The position numbers and the translations under genes were made by a program. A stretch of DNA of 13,716 nt from Bacillota bacterium (GTDB lineage Bacteria; Bacillota_I; Bacilli_A; Erysipelotrichales; Erysipelotrichaceae). Under the pieces are notes generated by a model that saw only the letters and a program-made list of their open reading frames with translations, was not told the DNA's origin and did not search any database. The DNA is taken from NCBI GenBank assembly GCA_023387245.1, contig JAEWIH010000064.1, positions 1-13,716 of the forward strand. The letters are read 5' to 3'. This document shows, piece by piece, positions 4,330-11,536 of the stretch (its first letter is position 1; each line of letters begins with the position of its first letter).

Positions 4330-5813
4330 TATCGTGCATCTCCTTTCGCATTTAATTGAATTCTAGGATCGACCGCAATCATTAAAATATCACCTAACAA
4401 TAAAGAAATAATTGACAAACTAGTAAATATAAATGTTAAAGCAATAACCATTGAATTATTATGTTGACTTATAGCATCTGGAAACATTTTACCCATTCCT
4501 GGAATAGCAAACATTGTCTCAGTAATAACCGAACCACTAATAGCTAAAATAATTGAAGCTGGAAAACCATTCGCAAATGGAATAATCGCATTTCTAAAAA
4601 CGTGTCTAGAAAAAATTTCTTTCTCACTCAAACCTTTAGCTCGCGCAAACTTAACATAATCAGAATTAGACTGATCAATCATGTAACGTCTAATCCAGAT
4701 CATTAAACCAGCAGTACCTAATAAACCTAAAATAAAAACCGGTAAAACGAAAGATCTTATATCACTAAAGCCATATAGAGGAAACTTATCAGGTAATCCA
4801 AATAAACTATTACCAATATCTTTAATAAAGAAAATAAAAGCTAAAGACGGTACCGCAATCAAAATATTAATATAAGTAATCCCGATTTTATCAAATAATT
4901 TACCCTTTGAACGCGCCATTAATATACCAGCCGGAATAGCAATCATATAAGAAACTAATAACGACAAAATATTAAACATAAAAGAAACGCCTAACATCGA
5001 AGGACTAGTATAGTTATTAATCGTATCGGCATAATTATCAACAAATTTATTACGATCTAATTTATCTAATAAAGAAGTTAATTTATACTTAGCACTATGT
5101 AAATTATTCGCTGCTTCATATACATTGCCCGTTGGGAATGTAGTCGGCTTAATATCTAATTCACCTTGGCCCATACCTATAACATCTAAAACCGGTACAC
5201 CTTGAAAAGCTGGAAACGAAACACCTAAATTTAATTTAATAAAATTTTGATGAATAAAAGGAAAATTACCATCTACATATAATAAATATTTATGTTTACA
5301 ACCAGAACACATAACCGCAGGCATACCATTATGATCACTACCAATATAAACACTACGATTCATATCTAAATTATCCATGTCATAAACATTATTAGGGTGA
5401 TCGATTTGAATCAAACGTTGATAAAATCCTAAAACTAATTCTAATGGATTATAATCACGAGTAGCATAAAAATAACCTTGACTATTTTTATTAACAGTAT
5501 AACCTTTATTTGATAATGATTGTGCCAAAGATTCAGCCTCACTTGAATTCGCTTTCGCACAATCACGCGGTTTATCAGATAGTTTACACATCTCATTTTG
5601 AGTTACATAATCTAAATAACCTAAATCTTCATAGCGAACATTCATATAATCCGTCAATAAATCGGGATTATTCGCTAATTTATTTAAAGTTGTATCCATA
5701 TCAAAAACACGATCTTTAGGAATCGCCAAATAAACCAGCGACATCACTATTGTCATAAGTATAAAAATGGAAACGAAGGAACGAATTACACGCCCTAAAA
5801 TATATCTTTTCAT
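4329..5813 (-). CDS. oppB: Oligopeptide ABC transporter permease OppB/AmiC with large extracellular domain
   Basis: This is the second channel-forming permease. At 494 residues it is much longer than classical OppB (about 306) but matches streptococcal AmiC. After the first helix (about 11-30) comes an external insertion of some 240 residues, before the BPD_transp_1 core (helices from about 275 to 482) with its EAA loop at 386-412 (FARAKGLSEKEIFSRHVFRN). The insertion carries four cysteines, Cys76, Cys85, Cys169 and Cys172 (CSGCKHK), which I do not recall in the streptococcal protein and which could form disulfides. The start is ATG 5813 with AGGAGG at 5822-5827. It follows oppA after a 90-nt gap holding a large palindrome and overlaps oppC by one base. 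Confidence 0.94.
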   Translation of the reverse strand: MKRYILGRVIRSFVSIFILMTIVMSLVYLAIPKDRVFDMDTTLNKLANNPDLLTDYMNVRYEDLGYLDYVTQNEMCKLSDKPRDCAKANSSEAESLAQSLSNKGYTVNKNSQGYFYATRDYNPLELVLGFYQRLIQIDHPNNVYDMDNLDMNRSVYIGSDHNGMPAVMCSGCKHKYLLYVDGNFPFIHQNFIKLNLGVSFPAFQGVPVLDVIGMGQGELDIKPTTFPTGNVYEAANNLHSAKYKLTSLLDKLDRNKFVDNYADTINNYTSPSMLGVSFMFNILSLLVSYMIAIPAGILMARSKGKLFDKIGITYINILIAVPSLAFIFFIKDIGNSLFGLPDKFPLYGFSDIRSFVLPVFILGLLGTAGLMIWIRRYMIDQSNSDYVKFARAKGLSEKEIFSRHVFRNAIIPFANGFPASIILAISGSVITETMFAIPGMGKMFPDAISQHNNSMVIALTFIFTSLSIISLLLGDILMIAVDPRIQLNAKGDAR

Positions 5814-5840
5814 AGTGAACGCCTCCTAACATATCACAAC

Positions 5841-5876
5841 GGCATAATAAGTGGTCATATGACCACTTATTTAGCC
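5841..5876 (-). promoter_or_regulatory. Perfect palindrome / stem-loop between oppA and oppB
   Basis: AATAAGTGGTCAT (5846-5858) is followed directly by its exact reverse complement (5859-5871), a 26-bp perfect palindrome. GGC (5841-5843) and GCC (5874-5876) extend the stem beyond two mismatched pairs. As RNA it folds into a long hairpin 28 nt after the oppA stop and just before the oppB ribosome site. No U-run follows, so it is more likely an mRNA-stabilising or processing hairpin that raises OppA over the membrane subunits than a full terminator. A DNA operator is the alternative. Confidence 0.7.
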
Positions 5877-5903
5877 TTTTAATTTTAATTCTTAAAACAA
5901 AGC

Positions 5904-7883
5904 TTATTGTTGAGCTTGTTTTTCATTTGTCCATTTTTGGAACGCTTCAGCATATTGTGTCTTGGTAACAATATCTTCTTGTAAACTTGAATACTTATAT
6001 TTTTGAACAGCAGTACCAACAGCACCTCTAGGACCAGAGAACGGTACAGCTCTTGTTACTAAATAGCCACGAGCTTTCATTTGGAATGGCAAATATAAAG
6101 CTTCTGCTAATAAGAACGCTTCAGCTTCAGCATATAATTGATAACGTTTATCTAAGTCTTTCAATTCTTTATCTGCAGCTTGAATCATTTCAGTATACTT
6201 AACAAAACCTAATTTATTCAAAATTTCATCATTCTTAGCATCTTGACCTAATCCTACTAATCCCATGTTTTGTAACATAGCACCATTATTAGCTGAATAA
6301 ATATCAGCAAATGTCTTAGGATCTGAATAGTCTGGACCCCAACCAGAGAATGTATTTATATCATAATCTCTCTTAGCAGCATCTGGTTCACGGAATAAGT
6401 TTTGAGTAATTTCATCTTTAGTTTTATTAATTAAATCAATAATAATTTGTCCATTTGTATTTTTTTCAACCGAAGCTTTAAATGAACGAGCACGATTTAA
6501 ATATACTTCACTATCATTAGAAATAACTGGCATATCTAAAATAACCGGGAACACAATTCCATCTTTTTTAGCTAATTCAATTTCAGCTAAAGCAGCTTCA
6601 CTACTCAAGAATGGATCTGTACCATAAGCCAACGAAACATCTTTACCAACTAATTTAGAATAAGCGGCACTTACTAATCGTTCATAAGATTCACCTTTGC
6701 TATTGAATACTATTTCATCAAAAGTATTCAAGTTAACAACCATATCCTTAGCAACATCAAGTGCCGTTGATTGAGAAATATAAGCAACACGATCAATCGC
6801 ATGTTGTAAAGCTAAACGGAAATGTTTGTTATGTTTAGCAGCTTCTGCTTGTGCTAATTGTTTAGCATTTTTATTAGTCCAATTAGTAGCAACCCGATTA
6901 AAGTTTAACTGTGTACCATATGTAGTTGAATTTGGCGGAGTAACGATATAATTGTCTTTATATTTTGTCTTATATTTATCAAAATCACTCCAGCTTGGTA
7001 CTAGAGCACTTGAGAAATAAGCACCAGACTCAAAACCTTTAATTTGTGAATAAGGATCTTTACCATCACTATAAACTAATGTAAATGTATTAAAATGAAC
7101 ATTGTCTTTATCCCAGTAAGTCGGATTTTTCTTATAAGCTATTTTAGACTTAGAATCTAAAGCAGTTAAAACGAAAATACCATTATATAAAATAGAATCA
7201 GGTTGTACAGCCCCAAAACCACACTCATTCTTATTAGGAGCACCTAATTTACAACCAGAACCTTTACCTTCCAAAAACTCTTTGTTAATCGGTTGTAAAA
7301 TAGTATACAATGTCATCGATTTAAAATAAGGAGCAGGTTCAGTCAAAGTATAAACTAAAGTATAATCATCTGTAGCTTTTACACCAACTTTATCAAAACT
7401 AACTTCACCCTTAGTATATTTATCAAGATTTACAATTAAACTTTGAACTAACCATAAAGTATCAGATTTAAAATCCGTAGCATGTTGTAAACCAGTAACA
7501 AAGTCTTGAGCTTTCAACTCAGCATACTCTTCACCAGTAGATGTTACCCATTTAACACCTTTACGAATTTTAAATGTATGAGTTAATCCATCTTCACTAG
7601 CTTCATGAGACTCAGCCAAAGCCGGAACAATATTACCTAATCGATCATTTTCAAATAGTGTATCAACTAAATTAGTAGTTACGTTAGTATCAGTATCGTG
7701 CCCTGTAACAACATAGTCCAAAGTATGTGGATCTTCTCCATAAGAAGTAGTAGCATTAACTTCTGGTAATCCCTCTAAACTAGTCCCAGCTTTTCCGGTT
7801 TTAGTAGAACTGCCACCACCAGAACAAGCAACCAATGAAAATGTCAACGCACCAAGTAATAACTTAGAAACAATTTTTTTCAT
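5904..7883 (-). CDS. oppA: Oligopeptide-binding lipoprotein OppA/AmiA
   Basis: This extracellular peptide-binding lipoprotein (SBP_bac_5 family) delivers peptides to OppBCDF. I chose ATG 7883 because AAGGGGGAAG precedes it and because a further upstream start at 7943 would lie inside the promoter. The 659-residue product has a lipoprotein signal (KK, hydrophobic core, LVAC) with Cys20 as the lipid-modified residue, then a Gly/Ser-rich linker. The mature part keeps family landmarks such as LAESHEASEDGLTHTFKIRKGVKW and, near the C-terminus, SGWGPDYSDPKTF. Length and these motifs resemble streptococcal AmiA/AliA. Cys211 and Cys221 in a loop are a possible disulfide. It is first in the operon with its own promoter and a hairpin behind it, as expected for the most abundant subunit. 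Confidence 0.94.
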   Translation of the reverse strand: MKKIVSKLLLGALTFSLVACSGGGSSTKTGKAGTSLEGLPEVNATTSYGEDPHTLDYVVTGHDTDTNVTTNLVDTLFENDRLGNIVPALAESHEASEDGLTHTFKIRKGVKWVTSTGEEYAELKAQDFVTGLQHATDFKSDTLWLVQSLIVNLDKYTKGEVSFDKVGVKATDDYTLVYTLTEPAPYFKSMTLYTILQPINKEFLEGKGSGCKLGAPNKNECGFGAVQPDSILYNGIFVLTALDSKSKIAYKKNPTYWDKDNVHFNTFTLVYSDGKDPYSQIKGFESGAYFSSALVPSWSDFDKYKTKYKDNYIVTPPNSTTYGTQLNFNRVATNWTNKNAKQLAQAEAAKHNKHFRLALQHAIDRVAYISQSTALDVAKDMVVNLNTFDEIVFNSKGESYERLVSAAYSKLVGKDVSLAYGTDPFLSSEAALAEIELAKKDGIVFPVILDMPVISNDSEVYLNRARSFKASVEKNTNGQIIIDLINKTKDEITQNLFREPDAAKRDYDINTFSGWGPDYSDPKTFADIYSANNGAMLQNMGLVGLGQDAKNDEILNKLGFVKYTEMIQAADKELKDLDKRYQLYAEAEAFLLAEALYLPFQMKARGYLVTRAVPFSGPRGAVGTAVQKYKYSSLQEDIVTKTQYAEAFQKWTNEKQAQQ

Positions 7884-7993: not shown

Positions 7994-8365
7994 TTAACGC
8001 TGATTATCACACTGAATACATATATCATCATAAAAAGATTCGCTATATTCTAAATTATCTAAATATTTCAAAAATAAATATTTGTCAACAAAATAAATTC
8101 CTAATATCATTAATAACAAAATCACTATTAAAATAATATCTAATACTCTATTTGGATAAATACGACTCAAAAATAAAGAATTAATCAACCATAAACTAAC
8201 AAAGCCGACACTAGTCAATAATAATAATAATAAACTATTACGCAATTCCAAACGCCCATAAAAACGATAATTATCTTTATTACTAAAAAACAATCTCTTA
8301 AATCTAATTAAACGAAAGCTTCTATATAAAAAGATTAATTGTTCATCACTAAACTTAGACTTCAT
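7994..8365 (-). CDS. Small two-helix membrane protein of unknown function
   Basis: I do not recognise this family. The ATG at 8365 gives 123 residues, with two hydrophobic segments (about 44-66 and 74-93), a basic aromatic N-terminal stretch (YRSFRLIRFKRLFF, 14-27) and a short acidic C-terminus ending in a CIQC pair (Cys116, Cys119). The positive N-terminus suggests it is cytoplasmic, with a helical hairpin placing both ends inside. The start overlaps the 3' end of the AI-2E-family gene by 11 nt, and the ribosome site is poor (GGAAAGAGAG at a distance), so translational coupling is likely. A GTG at 8392 is an alternative start. It is the last gene of the yitT unit, 41 nt before the oppA -35. 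No clear terminator follows. Confidence 0.65.
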   Translation of the reverse strand: MKSKFSDEQLIFLYRSFRLIRFKRLFFSNKDNYRFYGRLELRNSLLLLLLTSVGFVSLWLINSLFLSRIYPNRVLDIILIVILLLMILGIYFVDKYLFLKYLDNLEYSESFYDDICIQCDNQR

Positions 8366-9554
8366 GATTATCTGTTTTCTCTCTTTCCACACTAGAAACC
8401 TTTTCTTTAGAATTAGAATTATTTAATTGTTCAATACTAATACCCCTTAACGATAAACGCTTAGTAGTTATCGTAGCCAAAATAGCATAAACAATCGAAG
8501 CAATTGGAACCATCATTACCATTCCCGCAAAACCAAATAAACTCGCACCAACATACACAGCCACCATTACCCAAATACCAGGCAAACCGATTTGATTACC
8601 AACAATTCGAGGATAAATAACATTACCATCTATTTGAATAATAATAATCATTAATAACAAAAATAACAATCCCGAATATATAGACACCGAACTAATTAAA
8701 ACAAACCCTAAAGCACCACCAATAAACATTCCAAAATAAGGAATCAAAGCACCAACTCCAACTAGTACCGCTACTACGATTTTAAAAGGAAAATCAAAAA
8801 TTAAGCACATTATAAAACAAATAGTACCATTAATAAATCCTTCACACACTTGTCCCATTAAAAAACCCGAAAAAACGCGATGTGATAATAAAGATAAATC
8901 AACCACTTTCTTAGCCCATATTTTAGGTAAAAAAGCATACAATAACATTTTAGCCTGTAACTTTAACTTATCACGCCCTAATAACAAATATATCGCAAAA
9001 GCAAAAGAAACAACGAAATTAAAAACTGTCGAAATCGCCGAATTAAAAATTTGTGTTATCCACGTAAACAAAAACCCAACCGAAACAGAAGTTATATTTA
9101 ATAATCCCTGAACCCATTTAGTCGATTCTTGCGCTAAACTTTGAAGCTGTTGTTGCCAACTAGGATTAGATTTAAAAGTATCCGTCAAATACTGAGTAAT
9201 TTGATTAATAACTGCAGGTATTCTATTTGCAACATCAACTAAAGCATCAATAAAACTCGGGAAAACTAATAATACTAAAAAAGCAATAAATCACATTATT
9301 AAAAAATTCGAAAGTAATACCGAAATTAAGCGTCTAGTATTTCTATTAGTAATAATATCCTCAAAAAAATCTTCAAATTTATTCGCTGGAGCATTGACAA
9401 TAAAAGCAAAAGCACCACCAATTATAAAAGGTAATAATAAAGAAATAATAAAATTGATAACTATTGGTACAAAATATAAATTATTTAAAACAAAATGAAC
9501 ACAAATTAAAATTATTCCTAGCCAAAATAAAATATGTAAATCTTTTTTATTCAT
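8355..9554 (-). pseudogene. AI-2E family permease interrupted by an in-frame TGA
   Basis: A membrane protein of the AI-2E/TqsA/YhhT family (PF01594), whose members include autoinducer-2 exporters, Na+/H+ antiporters and uncharacterised transporters. The frame from ATG 9554 (GGAGG upstream, 13 nt after yitT) encodes two helices and about 87 residues, then TGA at 9293-9291. The same frame continues without interruption (FIAFLVLLVFPSFIDALVDV...) to TAA at 8355, giving 399 codons in all, a normal family length. The C-terminal part has the expected helices and signatures (PYFGMFIGG, VGNQIGLPGIWVMVAV, FGFAGMVMMVPIAS). The stop falls in the third hydrophobic segment where Trp is plausible (SNFLIM-W-FIAFL), so TGG to TGA is the simplest reading. 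A sequencing error or readthrough cannot be excluded. Confidence 0.85.
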
Positions 9555-9567
9555 ACAAAACCCTCCA

Positions 9568-10449
9568 TTATTCTATAGGTTTACGATAGAAACCACCATA
9601 AAATCTTTCTGTCTTTAATACGTTAATAATACAATTTTTATCATGTGTTTTCAAACAAGTAACAATATCAGCAACTTCATAACTAGAAACGACAGTAGTA
9701 CATAAATATAATGGAGTATGTGAATAAGCACCATAACTAGGCGAAACAGTGCAACCGTGATGAAACTGATTTAAATATGTATTTAGAACTAAATCAGGCA
9801 TTGAAGTCGTAATCTGTAAAGTAACTTGCGAAAAACGATTATGAAATCTTTCTATTACTCTCGTAGATACATACTGAAATAAAATCGAATAACCAGCATA
9901 CTGCCAACCAAATAAAAAACCGAATACGATTAACATTACACAATTAAATACAAATACATACTGCCAAATACCTTTGCCTATTTTATTAGAAACATATAAC
10001 GCAATAAAATCGGTACCACCACTAGAAGCATCAGCTTTTAATGCCAAAGAAATTGCACTACCATAAACTACTCCACCTAATAAACAATTTAAAATAATAT
10101 CATTAAACAAAACTTGAAACTTTAAAATGCCTAAGAAAAAAGATGTCAAAAAAAATTGTAAACAAGATAAAAAAGTAAAACGCAAAGATATTGAACGGCA
10201 ACACAACAAAGCAACTGGAATATTTAGTGCCAAAATTATATACGAAATATCTAACTTAATCCCAAATAATTCACCAATTCTAGAAATTAAAATACTTAAT
10301 CCACTAAATCCAGCCGATAATAAATGATGTGATTGAACAAAAGTGCCAATCGAATAAGCTAATAAAAAACTAGATAAAATAACTAAAATAATCGAAAAAA
10401 CTAACCGTAAATAAAAATTAGTATGATATATATGCAATACTCTTTTCAT
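9568..10449 (-). CDS. YitT family membrane protein (DUF161 + DUF2179)
   Basis: A 293-residue integral membrane protein. The N-terminal DUF161/YitT_membrane part spans about 15-190 with five or so hydrophobic segments and carries the conserved SSGGTDFIA motif (142-150). The C-terminal cytoplasmic DUF2179 domain covers about 222-280, with GCTVSPSYGAYSHTPLYLC at its start and an ...NVLKTERFYGGFYRK tail. The biochemical role of YitT proteins is not established. This copy is rich in Cys (for example Cys83/84, Cys233, Cys250, Cys265, Cys273). ATG 10449 is preceded by AAGGAG at only 4 nt spacing. It heads a unit with the AI-2E-family gene and is preceded by its own promoter, a structured leader and a terminator, so its expression is probably controlled by attenuation. 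Confidence 0.92.
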   Translation of the reverse strand: MKRVLHIYHTNFYLRLVFSIILVILSSFLLAYSIGTFVQSHHLLSAGFSGLSILISRIGELFGIKLDISYIILALNIPVALLCCRSISLRFTFLSCLQFFLTSFFLGILKFQVLFNDIILNCLLGGVVYGSAISLALKADASSGGTDFIALYVSNKIGKGIWQYVFVFNCVMLIVFGFLFGWQYAGYSILFQYVSTRVIERFHNRFSQVTLQITTSMPDLVLNTYLNQFHHGCTVSPSYGAYSHTPLYLCTTVVSSYEVADIVTCLKTHDKNCIINVLKTERFYGGFYRKPIE

Positions 10450-10460
10450 GTCGCTCCTTG

Positions 10461-10493
10461 AAAAAAAGGATAAAAGGCACCACCCTTTTATCC
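10461..10493 (-). terminator. Strong intrinsic terminator in the yitT leader
   Basis: On the minus strand GGATAAAAGG (10493-10484) pairs perfectly with CCTTTTATCC (10477-10468) around a GTGGTG loop and runs straight into seven T (10467-10461), 5' of the yitT ribosome site. It can end ldh readthrough and, more interestingly, transcripts from the promoter at 10561-10589. The 3' arm can alternatively pair with 10509-10516. Confidence 0.9.
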
Positions 10494-10498
10494 AAAGT

Positions 10499-10554
10499 GT
10501 GCAGCCACCCTTCCATTATGTAATATTATATTATAATGGCCACCACATCTGCAC
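10499..10554 (-). ncRNA. Candidate riboswitch/attenuator aptamer upstream of yitT
   Basis: The predicted RNA begins at about 10554 with GTGCAG, which pairs with CTGCAC (10504-10499) as P1. Inside, CCATTAT (10539-10533) pairs with ATAATGG (10519-10513) as P2 with an AT-rich loop. Between the stems are two unpaired G-rich strands, ATGTGGTGG on the left and AAGGGTGG on the right, looking like a binding pocket. ATGGAAGG (10516-10509) can instead pair with CCTTTTAT (10477-10470) of the terminator, six Watson-Crick plus two G-U pairs, so P2 formation and antitermination exclude each other. The class is unassigned. A faint resemblance to the guanidine-IV (mepA) type is from memory only. Confidence 0.6.
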
Positions 10555-10560
10555 AACCAA

Positions 10561-10589
10561 ATTATATTATTTTCCTAAATTAAAGTCAA
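10561..10589 (-). promoter_or_regulatory. Sigma-A promoter for the yitT leader, overlapping the ldh stop
   Basis: TTGACT (10589-10584) and TATAAT (10566-10561, perfect) are 17 bp apart on the minus strand. The -35 contains the TGA stop of ldh (10588-10586). The predicted start, six bases past the -10, is G10554, exactly the first base of the P1 stem of the structured leader. Confidence 0.82.
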
Positions 10590-11536
10590 TCATTTAAACA
10601 AGCTAAAGCCGCTTCTTGAACTTCTCTTAACATATTAGCCGACTGAATTAGTTTATTCATTTCACTCTCATTTAAATTCAATTCTATAATCGACAAAATA
10701 CCATCCCTACCAACAACCGCAGGAATACCAATATAAATATCATTTAAGCCATATTGACCCTCTAAAGCTACTGATAGCGGTAATATCGAATGTTCATTAT
10801 TTAATATTGCCTTAGTAATTCTAGCCAAAGCAACACCAATTCCATAATAAGTAGCACCTTTACGCTTAATAATTTCATAAGCCGCATTTTTAACATTAAA
10901 GAAGATATTCACTAATGACTCCTCATCAACATCAGGATGAGTTTTTACCCAATCAAAAATCGATAATCCCCCAATATTAGTCGCCGACCAAGCCGGAAAC
11001 TCAGAATCACCGTGCTCTCCCATAATATAGCCATGCACATTTCTAGCATCAACATTTAATAATAAACTAATTTCTTTTCTAAAACGAGCACTATCCAACG
11101 AAGTACCAGAACCAAAAACACGATTTTTAGGTAATCCCGAAAATTTTTGAGCAGCATAAGTCATAATATCAACTGGATTCGATGCCACTAATATTAATCC
11201 ATCAAAACCGCTACTCATCAAATTATCAATTACACTCTTCATAATTTTCATATTTTTATTAACTAAATCTAGTCGAGTTTCTCCCTGTTTTTGAGGCGCA
11301 CCAGCCGTAATGACTACAATATCAGCATCTTTACAATCACTATAGCTAGCACCATAAATATGACAAGGAGAAGTATAAGCCAAAGCATCACTTAAATCCA
11401 TAGCATCGCCATCAGCTTTATCTTGATTCATATCAATAATCCCAATTTCGCGACCAATCCCTTGGATAACACAAGCATAGCCAAAACTGCTACCAACAGC
11501 ACCATCGCCAATTATAATTATTTTTTCTTTGCTCAC
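10586..11536 (-). CDS. ldh: L-lactate dehydrogenase
   Basis: Cytoplasmic NAD-dependent LDH reducing pyruvate to L-lactate and regenerating NAD+ in fermentation. The 316-residue protein starts at GTG 11536 with AGGGGGT upstream, 12 nt after gltX. Visible features are the Rossmann glycine motif GDGAVGSS (10-17), Asp35 for NAD ribose, Gln82 in AGAPQKQGETR (the lactate rather than malate specificity position), loop Arg88, SNPVDIMTY (119-127), Asp148 and Arg151 in LDSARFR (catalytic and substrate-binding), catalytic His175 in GEHGDSEFP, and KGATYYGIG (226-234). The DARNVHGYIMGEHGDSEF segment resembles allosteric, fructose-bisphosphate-activated LDHs; whether this one is activated is inference. The TGA stop is followed two codons later by TAA. 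Confidence 0.96.
   Translation of the reverse strand: MSKEKIIIIGDGAVGSSFGYACVIQGIGREIGIIDMNQDKADGDAMDLSDALAYTSPCHIYGASYSDCKDADIVVITAGAPQKQGETRLDLVNKNMKIMKSVIDNLMSSGFDGLILVASNPVDIMTYAAQKFSGLPKNRVFGSGTSLDSARFRKEISLLLNVDARNVHGYIMGEHGDSEFPAWSATNIGGLSIFDWVKTHPDVDEESLVNIFFNVKNAAYEIIKRKGATYYGIGVALARITKAILNNEHSILPLSVALEGQYGLNDIYIGIPAVVGRDGILSIIELNLNESEMNKLIQSANMLREVQEAALACLND

Follow-up and report, generated by a model that had tools for sequence, protein, structure and literature searches.

A predicted cis-acting transcription attenuator with two exclusive folds in the leader of a bacterial yitT gene

We analysed the leader that lies between ldh and yitT on the minus strand of a 13,716-nucleotide stretch of bacterial DNA, referred to below as the window, and found that, as read from its sequence, its layout is that of an attenuator. 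We consider it probable, at roughly 55%, that this leader acts in cis as a transcription attenuator of yitT in which the nested helices P1 and P2 favour termination, as modelled folding suggests, and the frames behind yitT would probably stand under the same control.

On the minus strand, gltX is followed by ldh, yitT, an AI-2E-type transporter frame, a small ORF and a group of genes that we take, from their translations, to be an opp operon. Pfam searches, which covered 5 of the 20 listed frames, assigned ldh, yitT and the AI-2E frame, and gltX was named from the names of its relatives. Reading from the ldh stop codon (10586-10588) towards the yitT start at 10449, one meets a promoter match, then a two-helix domain, then a 10-bp terminator followed by seven T, and lastly AAGGAG ahead of the ATG. 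The genes and signals that frame the two-helix domain are:

10586-11536, minus strand: ldh, lactate/malate dehydrogenase family, adjoining the leader on its upstream side (Pfam)
10561-10589, minus strand: predicted sigma-70 type promoter TTGACT-17-TATAAT, its first hexamer overlapping the ldh stop codon (11/12 match)
10468-10493, minus strand: intrinsic terminator hairpin of 10 bp, whose 5′ arm and loop carry copy 2 of AAGGGTGG at 10480-10487 (terminator scan)
10461-10467, minus strand: T7 tract of the terminator (sequence)
10454-10459, minus strand: yitT ribosome-binding site AAGGAG (sequence)
9568-10449, minus strand: yitT, with PF02588 YitT_membrane and PF10035 DUF2179 (Pfam)

YitT proteins with DUF2179 are labelled uncharacterised in Pfam, and the portions of the literature considered here give YitT proteins no established function (PMC4944035). 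The frame behind yitT belongs to the AI-2E (UPF0118) family, for which both a Na+(Li+)/H+ antiporter (PMC7221264) and an AI-2 exporter (PMC9134010) have been described. This frame (8355-9554, minus strand) is broken by a single in-frame TGA at 9291-9293 and resumes right after it; a pseudogene, a sequencing error and recoding cannot be told apart here. Further along the strand, the oppA-oppB gap (5810-5910, minus strand) holds an 11-bp perfect hairpin, AATAAGTGGTC/GACCACTTATT, that has no T tract; the 101-nt stretch folds with a z-score of -3.83, and the hairpin is possibly an RNA-processing or attenuation element between the binding protein and the permeases.

The promoter and terminator named in the original prediction are both present. 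TTGACT-17-TATAAT matches at 11 of 12 positions (10589-10561, minus strand), and the 10-bp hairpin (10493-10468) runs into seven T (10467-10461). With a predicted energy of -13.0 kcal/mol and the GC-containing stem and T tract that characterize intrinsic terminators, the hairpin makes a convincing terminator by sequence; between 9500 and 11700, both strands together hold 4 terminator-like sites against 1.1 expected. Because the end of the T tract lies just 11 bases from the yitT start codon, there is no room for a yitT promoter behind the terminator, and yitT expression requires read-through.

The same hairpin could simply be the terminator of ldh, with a fortuitous or weak promoter, yitT living on leaky read-through and nothing being sensed, an explanation that we regard as somewhat unlikely, with a real chance of being right. 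On the ldh strand, the only other terminator-like site within ldh sits in the coding region (10727-10702), so that ldh needs the leader hairpin. Promoter-like matches are moreover common in such AT-rich sequence, with 19 observed and 11.2 expected between 9500 and 11700. The window has three 11/12 matches; in 30 shuffled windows the mean was 1.0 and the maximum 3, so that the promoter is suggestive and no proof. Against a plain ldh terminator stand the position of this 11/12 match, which lies directly before the leader with a 17-base spacer, and two properties of the leader itself: AAGGGTGG is present twice, and two exclusive stable folds are found that went unmatched in 1000 shuffles.

The two-helix domain consists of the following elements:

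10549-10555, minus strand: P1 5′ strand (sequence, folding)
10498-10504, minus strand: P1 3′ strand (folding)
10533-10539, minus strand: P2 5′ strand (folding)
10513-10519, minus strand: P2 3′ strand (folding)
10540-10548, minus strand: 5′ G-rich internal strand ATGTGGTGG, which also starts a possible MWWPL mini-ORF (sequence)
10505-10512, minus strand: 3′ G-rich internal strand AAGGGTGG, copy 1 (sequence)

P1, originally given as 6-7 bp, forms 7 bp (10549-10555 with 10498-10504). The 7 bp of P2 (10533-10539 with 10513-10519) and the two G-rich internal strands, ATGTGGTGG at 10540-10548 and AAGGGTGG at 10505-10512, were likewise borne out and had been located correctly. So was the recurrence of AAGGGTGG across the terminator stem and loop: its two copies in the window both fall in the leader, and two copies were seen in none of 200 window shuffles and none of 5000 leader shuffles, while some repeated GC-rich 8-mer appeared in 179 of the 5000 leader shuffles. 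Nested perfect helices of 7 bp were absent from 2000 shuffles, whereas 3 of these contained nested helices of 6 bp and 169 of 5 bp. The whole leader folds with a z-score of about -3.3, mostly owed to the terminator. The P1/P2 domain alone reaches -1.23, with 58 of 500 shuffles equally stable; by modelled energy alone it thus appears ordinary, a point in favour of the plain ldh terminator.

When growing transcripts were folded, a long hairpin that joins both G-rich regions, here called ALT and overlooked in the original prediction, competed with P1/P2:

10535-10556, minus strand: ALT hairpin 5′ arm (folding)
10488-10509, minus strand: ALT hairpin 3′ arm, taking up six bases (10488-10493) of the terminator 5′ arm (folding)

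From about 66 nt until the terminator is complete, ALT and not P1/P2 is the best predicted fold. At 70 nt, the predicted energies are -19.6 for ALT and -16.3 kcal/mol for P1/P2, and the two folds share none of their pairs. Dinucleotide shuffles of this prefix reached the first energy in 26 of 1000 cases, the second in 10 and both in none, and 6 of 1000 reached both for the 66-nt prefix, with the qualification that the fold tests were selected after the sequence had been seen. Transcripts of 78-84 nt held the ALT core in 74-78% of the ensemble and P1/P2 in 0.6-6%, and once the terminator was complete, at 90 nt, P1/P2 rose to 91% and the ALT core fell to 2%. This shift from ALT early to P1/P2 late suggests, at the level of a folding model, an off state formed by P1/P2 and a partial on state formed by ALT.

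The tie between these exclusive folds and the terminator is partial in silico. The ALT core can form alongside the complete terminator (-28.3 kcal/mol, compared with -30.3 with P1/P2), and complete ALT without the normal terminator has -26.7 kcal/mol. Because combining the ALT core with the full terminator costs just 2 kcal/mol, the full leader is predicted to terminate either way at equilibrium, and ALT would be a leaky antiterminator. An 8-bp antiterminator had been proposed instead (10509-10516 with 10470-10477). Its pairing exists, with two G-U pairs, but its competitive strength does not: it lies 13.6 kcal/mol above the best fold (-16.9 versus -30.5), and still 7.1 above it in a leader that starts at 10516 (-12.3 versus -19.4). 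As modelled, ALT is therefore the stronger and better-fitting candidate.

Among 12 upstream regions that were folded, that of yitT was one of the three most structured (z -2.73, alongside -5.1 for oppB and -2.3 for oppF). Of 2730 tiles, 5 had a second fold of -16.3 or lower and 3 of these lay in the yitT leader, a result that is no independent proof since two of the leader tiles contrast terminator registers and a form that pairs the ribosome-binding site. That form concerns the read-through transcript, in which CUUUGGA (10491-10497) can pair with UUCAAGG (10456-10462) and so mask part of the yitT ribosome-binding site; in the tile 10447-10516 it has -21.1 compared with -19.4 kcal/mol. As a separate observation, a 25-codon TTG-started frame (10418-10495, minus strand) crosses the terminator into yitT and is preceded by copy 1 of AAGGGTGG, which makes a strong Shine-Dalgarno match (-11.5 kcal/mol).

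In the attenuator that we propose, RNA polymerase would start at about the predicted position 10554, and the first 70 or so nucleotides would adopt ALT, holding six bases of the terminator 5′ arm and favouring read-through. Stabilization of P1/P2 would leave this arm free, so that the terminator could form and yitT would be switched off. We tentatively suggest a small molecule or ion held in the G-rich internal loop as the most likely stabilizing signal; a protein or a ribosome would be less likely. An ion is no more than thinkable, given that the AI-2E family includes the described antiporter (PMC7221264).

A ribosome could act through the possible leader peptide:

10531-10548, minus strand: possible leader peptide ORF ATG TGG TGG CCA TTA TAA, MWWPL (weak Shine-Dalgarno)

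This is the sole closed ATG frame of the 96-nt leader, and it puts a pair of adjacent Trp codons on the 5′ G-rich strand. Tandem Trp codons are a mark of trp-type leader peptides, with which the leader also shares a short two-Trp frame ahead of competing hairpins. Frames starting with MWW arose in 8 of 5000 shuffles and WW anywhere in such a frame in 78, but any doubled residue arose in 1824. The predicted 5′ UTR of MWWPL is about 6 bases, and its Shine-Dalgarno duplex has -4.6 kcal/mol compared with -5.4 to -13.5 for seven of the window's gene starts and -1.9 and -3.9 for two more, both doubtful. Unlike a trp-type attenuator, then, the yitT leader has a weak ribosome-binding site, and stalling yields no antiterminator in silico. 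Because the terminator still forms in the model with a ribosome set on either Trp codon, the classic leader-peptide logic fails, and we judge ribosome-mediated attenuation to be quite improbable. An RNA-binding antiterminator or terminator protein that targets the leader, with the repeated GGGTGG as its binding sites, is improbable as well; it would fit the recurrence of AAGGGTGG, one copy of which lies in the internal loop while the other spans the terminator stem and loop, but no such protein was found among the 5 of 20 frames searched against Pfam.

Known RNA families gave no better account of the leader. Rfam 15 returned no match in the window at the gathering threshold, and the best permissive match, ncr1241, scored 21.9 bits against a threshold of 60, its alignment falling mostly on the terminator. 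A T-box or decayed T-box that reads tRNA, suggested by the resemblance of both AAGGGTGG copies to the T-box core AAGGGTGGNACC (copy 2 reads AAGGGTGGTGCC) and by their positions ahead of and inside the terminator, is extremely improbable and already largely refuted. The core is imperfect in the yitT leader, each copy having 3 mismatches to a 15-base T-box pattern and at least two such matches occurring in 18 of 200 shuffles; a classic T-box stem I would not fit into so short a leader, and no T-box matched in Rfam even at E up to 10.

The likeness to guanidine-IV (mepA) riboswitches that had been proposed was not supported either, beyond a leader of about 100 nt that ends in a terminator. No guanidine-IV match was obtained at E up to 10, from an Rfam set that may not hold the model. 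In guanidine-IV as described, the terminator incorporates the aptamer stem and is prevented from forming by a kissing loop that the ligand induces (PMC11611296). The yitT leader differs in that its terminator is a separate hairpin (10468-10493), of which the aptamer is not a part, and in its target gene. The portion of PMC6429828 considered contains no mention of yit, DUF or mepA.

To look for relatives of the leader, we used a covariance model built from this one sequence (R1) as well as searches with the neighbouring proteins. Two close YitT proteins share 95% (P0001) and 88% (P0002) identity, and the best named relative, from an Erysipelotrichaceae MAG, shares 60% (P0010). The best named GltX relatives come from Erysipelothrix sp. 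MAGs (61 and 59%), followed by Defluviitaleaceae and Acetobacterium at 58-59%, which makes an Erysipelotrichaceae-like lineage probable and no more. Another GltX relative (P0124) shares 82%; since a longest contig of 12,278 bases is given for it and for P0002 alike, gltX, ldh and yitT may lie together on one contig there. R1 found nothing in 398 genomes of one phylum sample under stricter filters (E up to 0.1). Weak matches appeared in 6 of 186 genomes of the order of G003 (E up to 0.5), and these six were rejected. Chance alone would be expected to give E-values of this size over 186 genomes. The best of the six (L302; 26.4 bits, E 0.02) lacks the 5′ strand of P1, and another (L305; 22.7 bits) keeps most of the pairing and sits in an intergenic inverted repeat, without the 5′ G-rich strand. 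Of the remainder, L303 is a gene end with its own hairpin, and in L304, L306 and L307 the match is limited to P2.

YitT relatives with 47-55% identity were located at 16 loci in genome contigs, most of them from Clostridia (Hungatella, for instance) and one from Enorma; GGGTGG lay on the gene strand within about 600 bases upstream at one of these (L012, about 490 bases off). R1 matched none of 37 loci of YitT relatives, these 16 included, and gave a single match of 12.5 bits (E 3) in a set of 34 YitT loci. In six relatives (44-53% identity, order of G256), yitT appears by eye to follow another coding stretch directly or to overlap it. Searches with GltX, LDH and YitT over samples of the phylum of G002 (199 or 398 genomes) yielded no strong YitT relative but G002 at E up to 1e-60, and no useful relative emerged from the family of G160 (7 genomes), the orders of G256 (148) and G002 (187) or two chosen sets (14 and 46).

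A nucleotide search of 11 phage and 4 plasmid records gave short matches only (best E 0.1). DNA pattern searches of viral contigs returned 7, at least 120, 62 and 38 stretches, and both helices were kept at the length seen in the window in none of the stretches listed. Only one of 121 sites, L048, had P1 of at least 5 and P2 of at least 6 (5 plus 6, G-U pairs included); among another 100 viral sites, 8 passed a loose filter and looked chance-like by eye. Over those 100 loci, outside L038-L164, R1 produced 10 weak matches, the strongest of 22.1 bits (E 0.098), and none of 103 stretches from a YitT alignment in viral contigs was confirmed. Conservation was thus not found within the genomes and loci searched, which fits the plain ldh terminator. 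The searches suggest that the element is not common outside its own lineage, a reading that does not extend to the lineage itself; with no genome known to match R1, the empty results prove nothing.

The reading of the cassette as a riboswitch, as originally proposed, therefore stands in part: the regulated leader is supported by the order of promoter, terminator and ribosome-binding site and by the two exclusive folds, and a new ligand-binding class would go beyond this. The leader resembles terminator-type riboswitches in general in its order of promoter, aptamer-like two-helix domain, separate terminator, ribosome-binding site and gene, in its purine-rich internal loop and in a competing fold upstream of the terminator; it differs in an antiterminator that is leaky in silico and in matching no Rfam family. 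We consider it unlikely that it represents a new riboswitch class confined to an Erysipelotrichaceae-like lineage, in which a ligand or ion between the G-rich strands, perhaps in a two-layer G-quadruplex, would turn off an operon of yitT and the AI-2E-type transporter. Our literature search found no paper combining 'riboswitch' and 'yitT'.

As a plain terminator, or as an attenuator of unknown trigger, the leader would matter little. If it senses a ligand, it would name a metabolite or ion tied to YitT proteins, and should it belong to a new riboswitch class, that ligand would give a first hint as to what YitT proteins handle.
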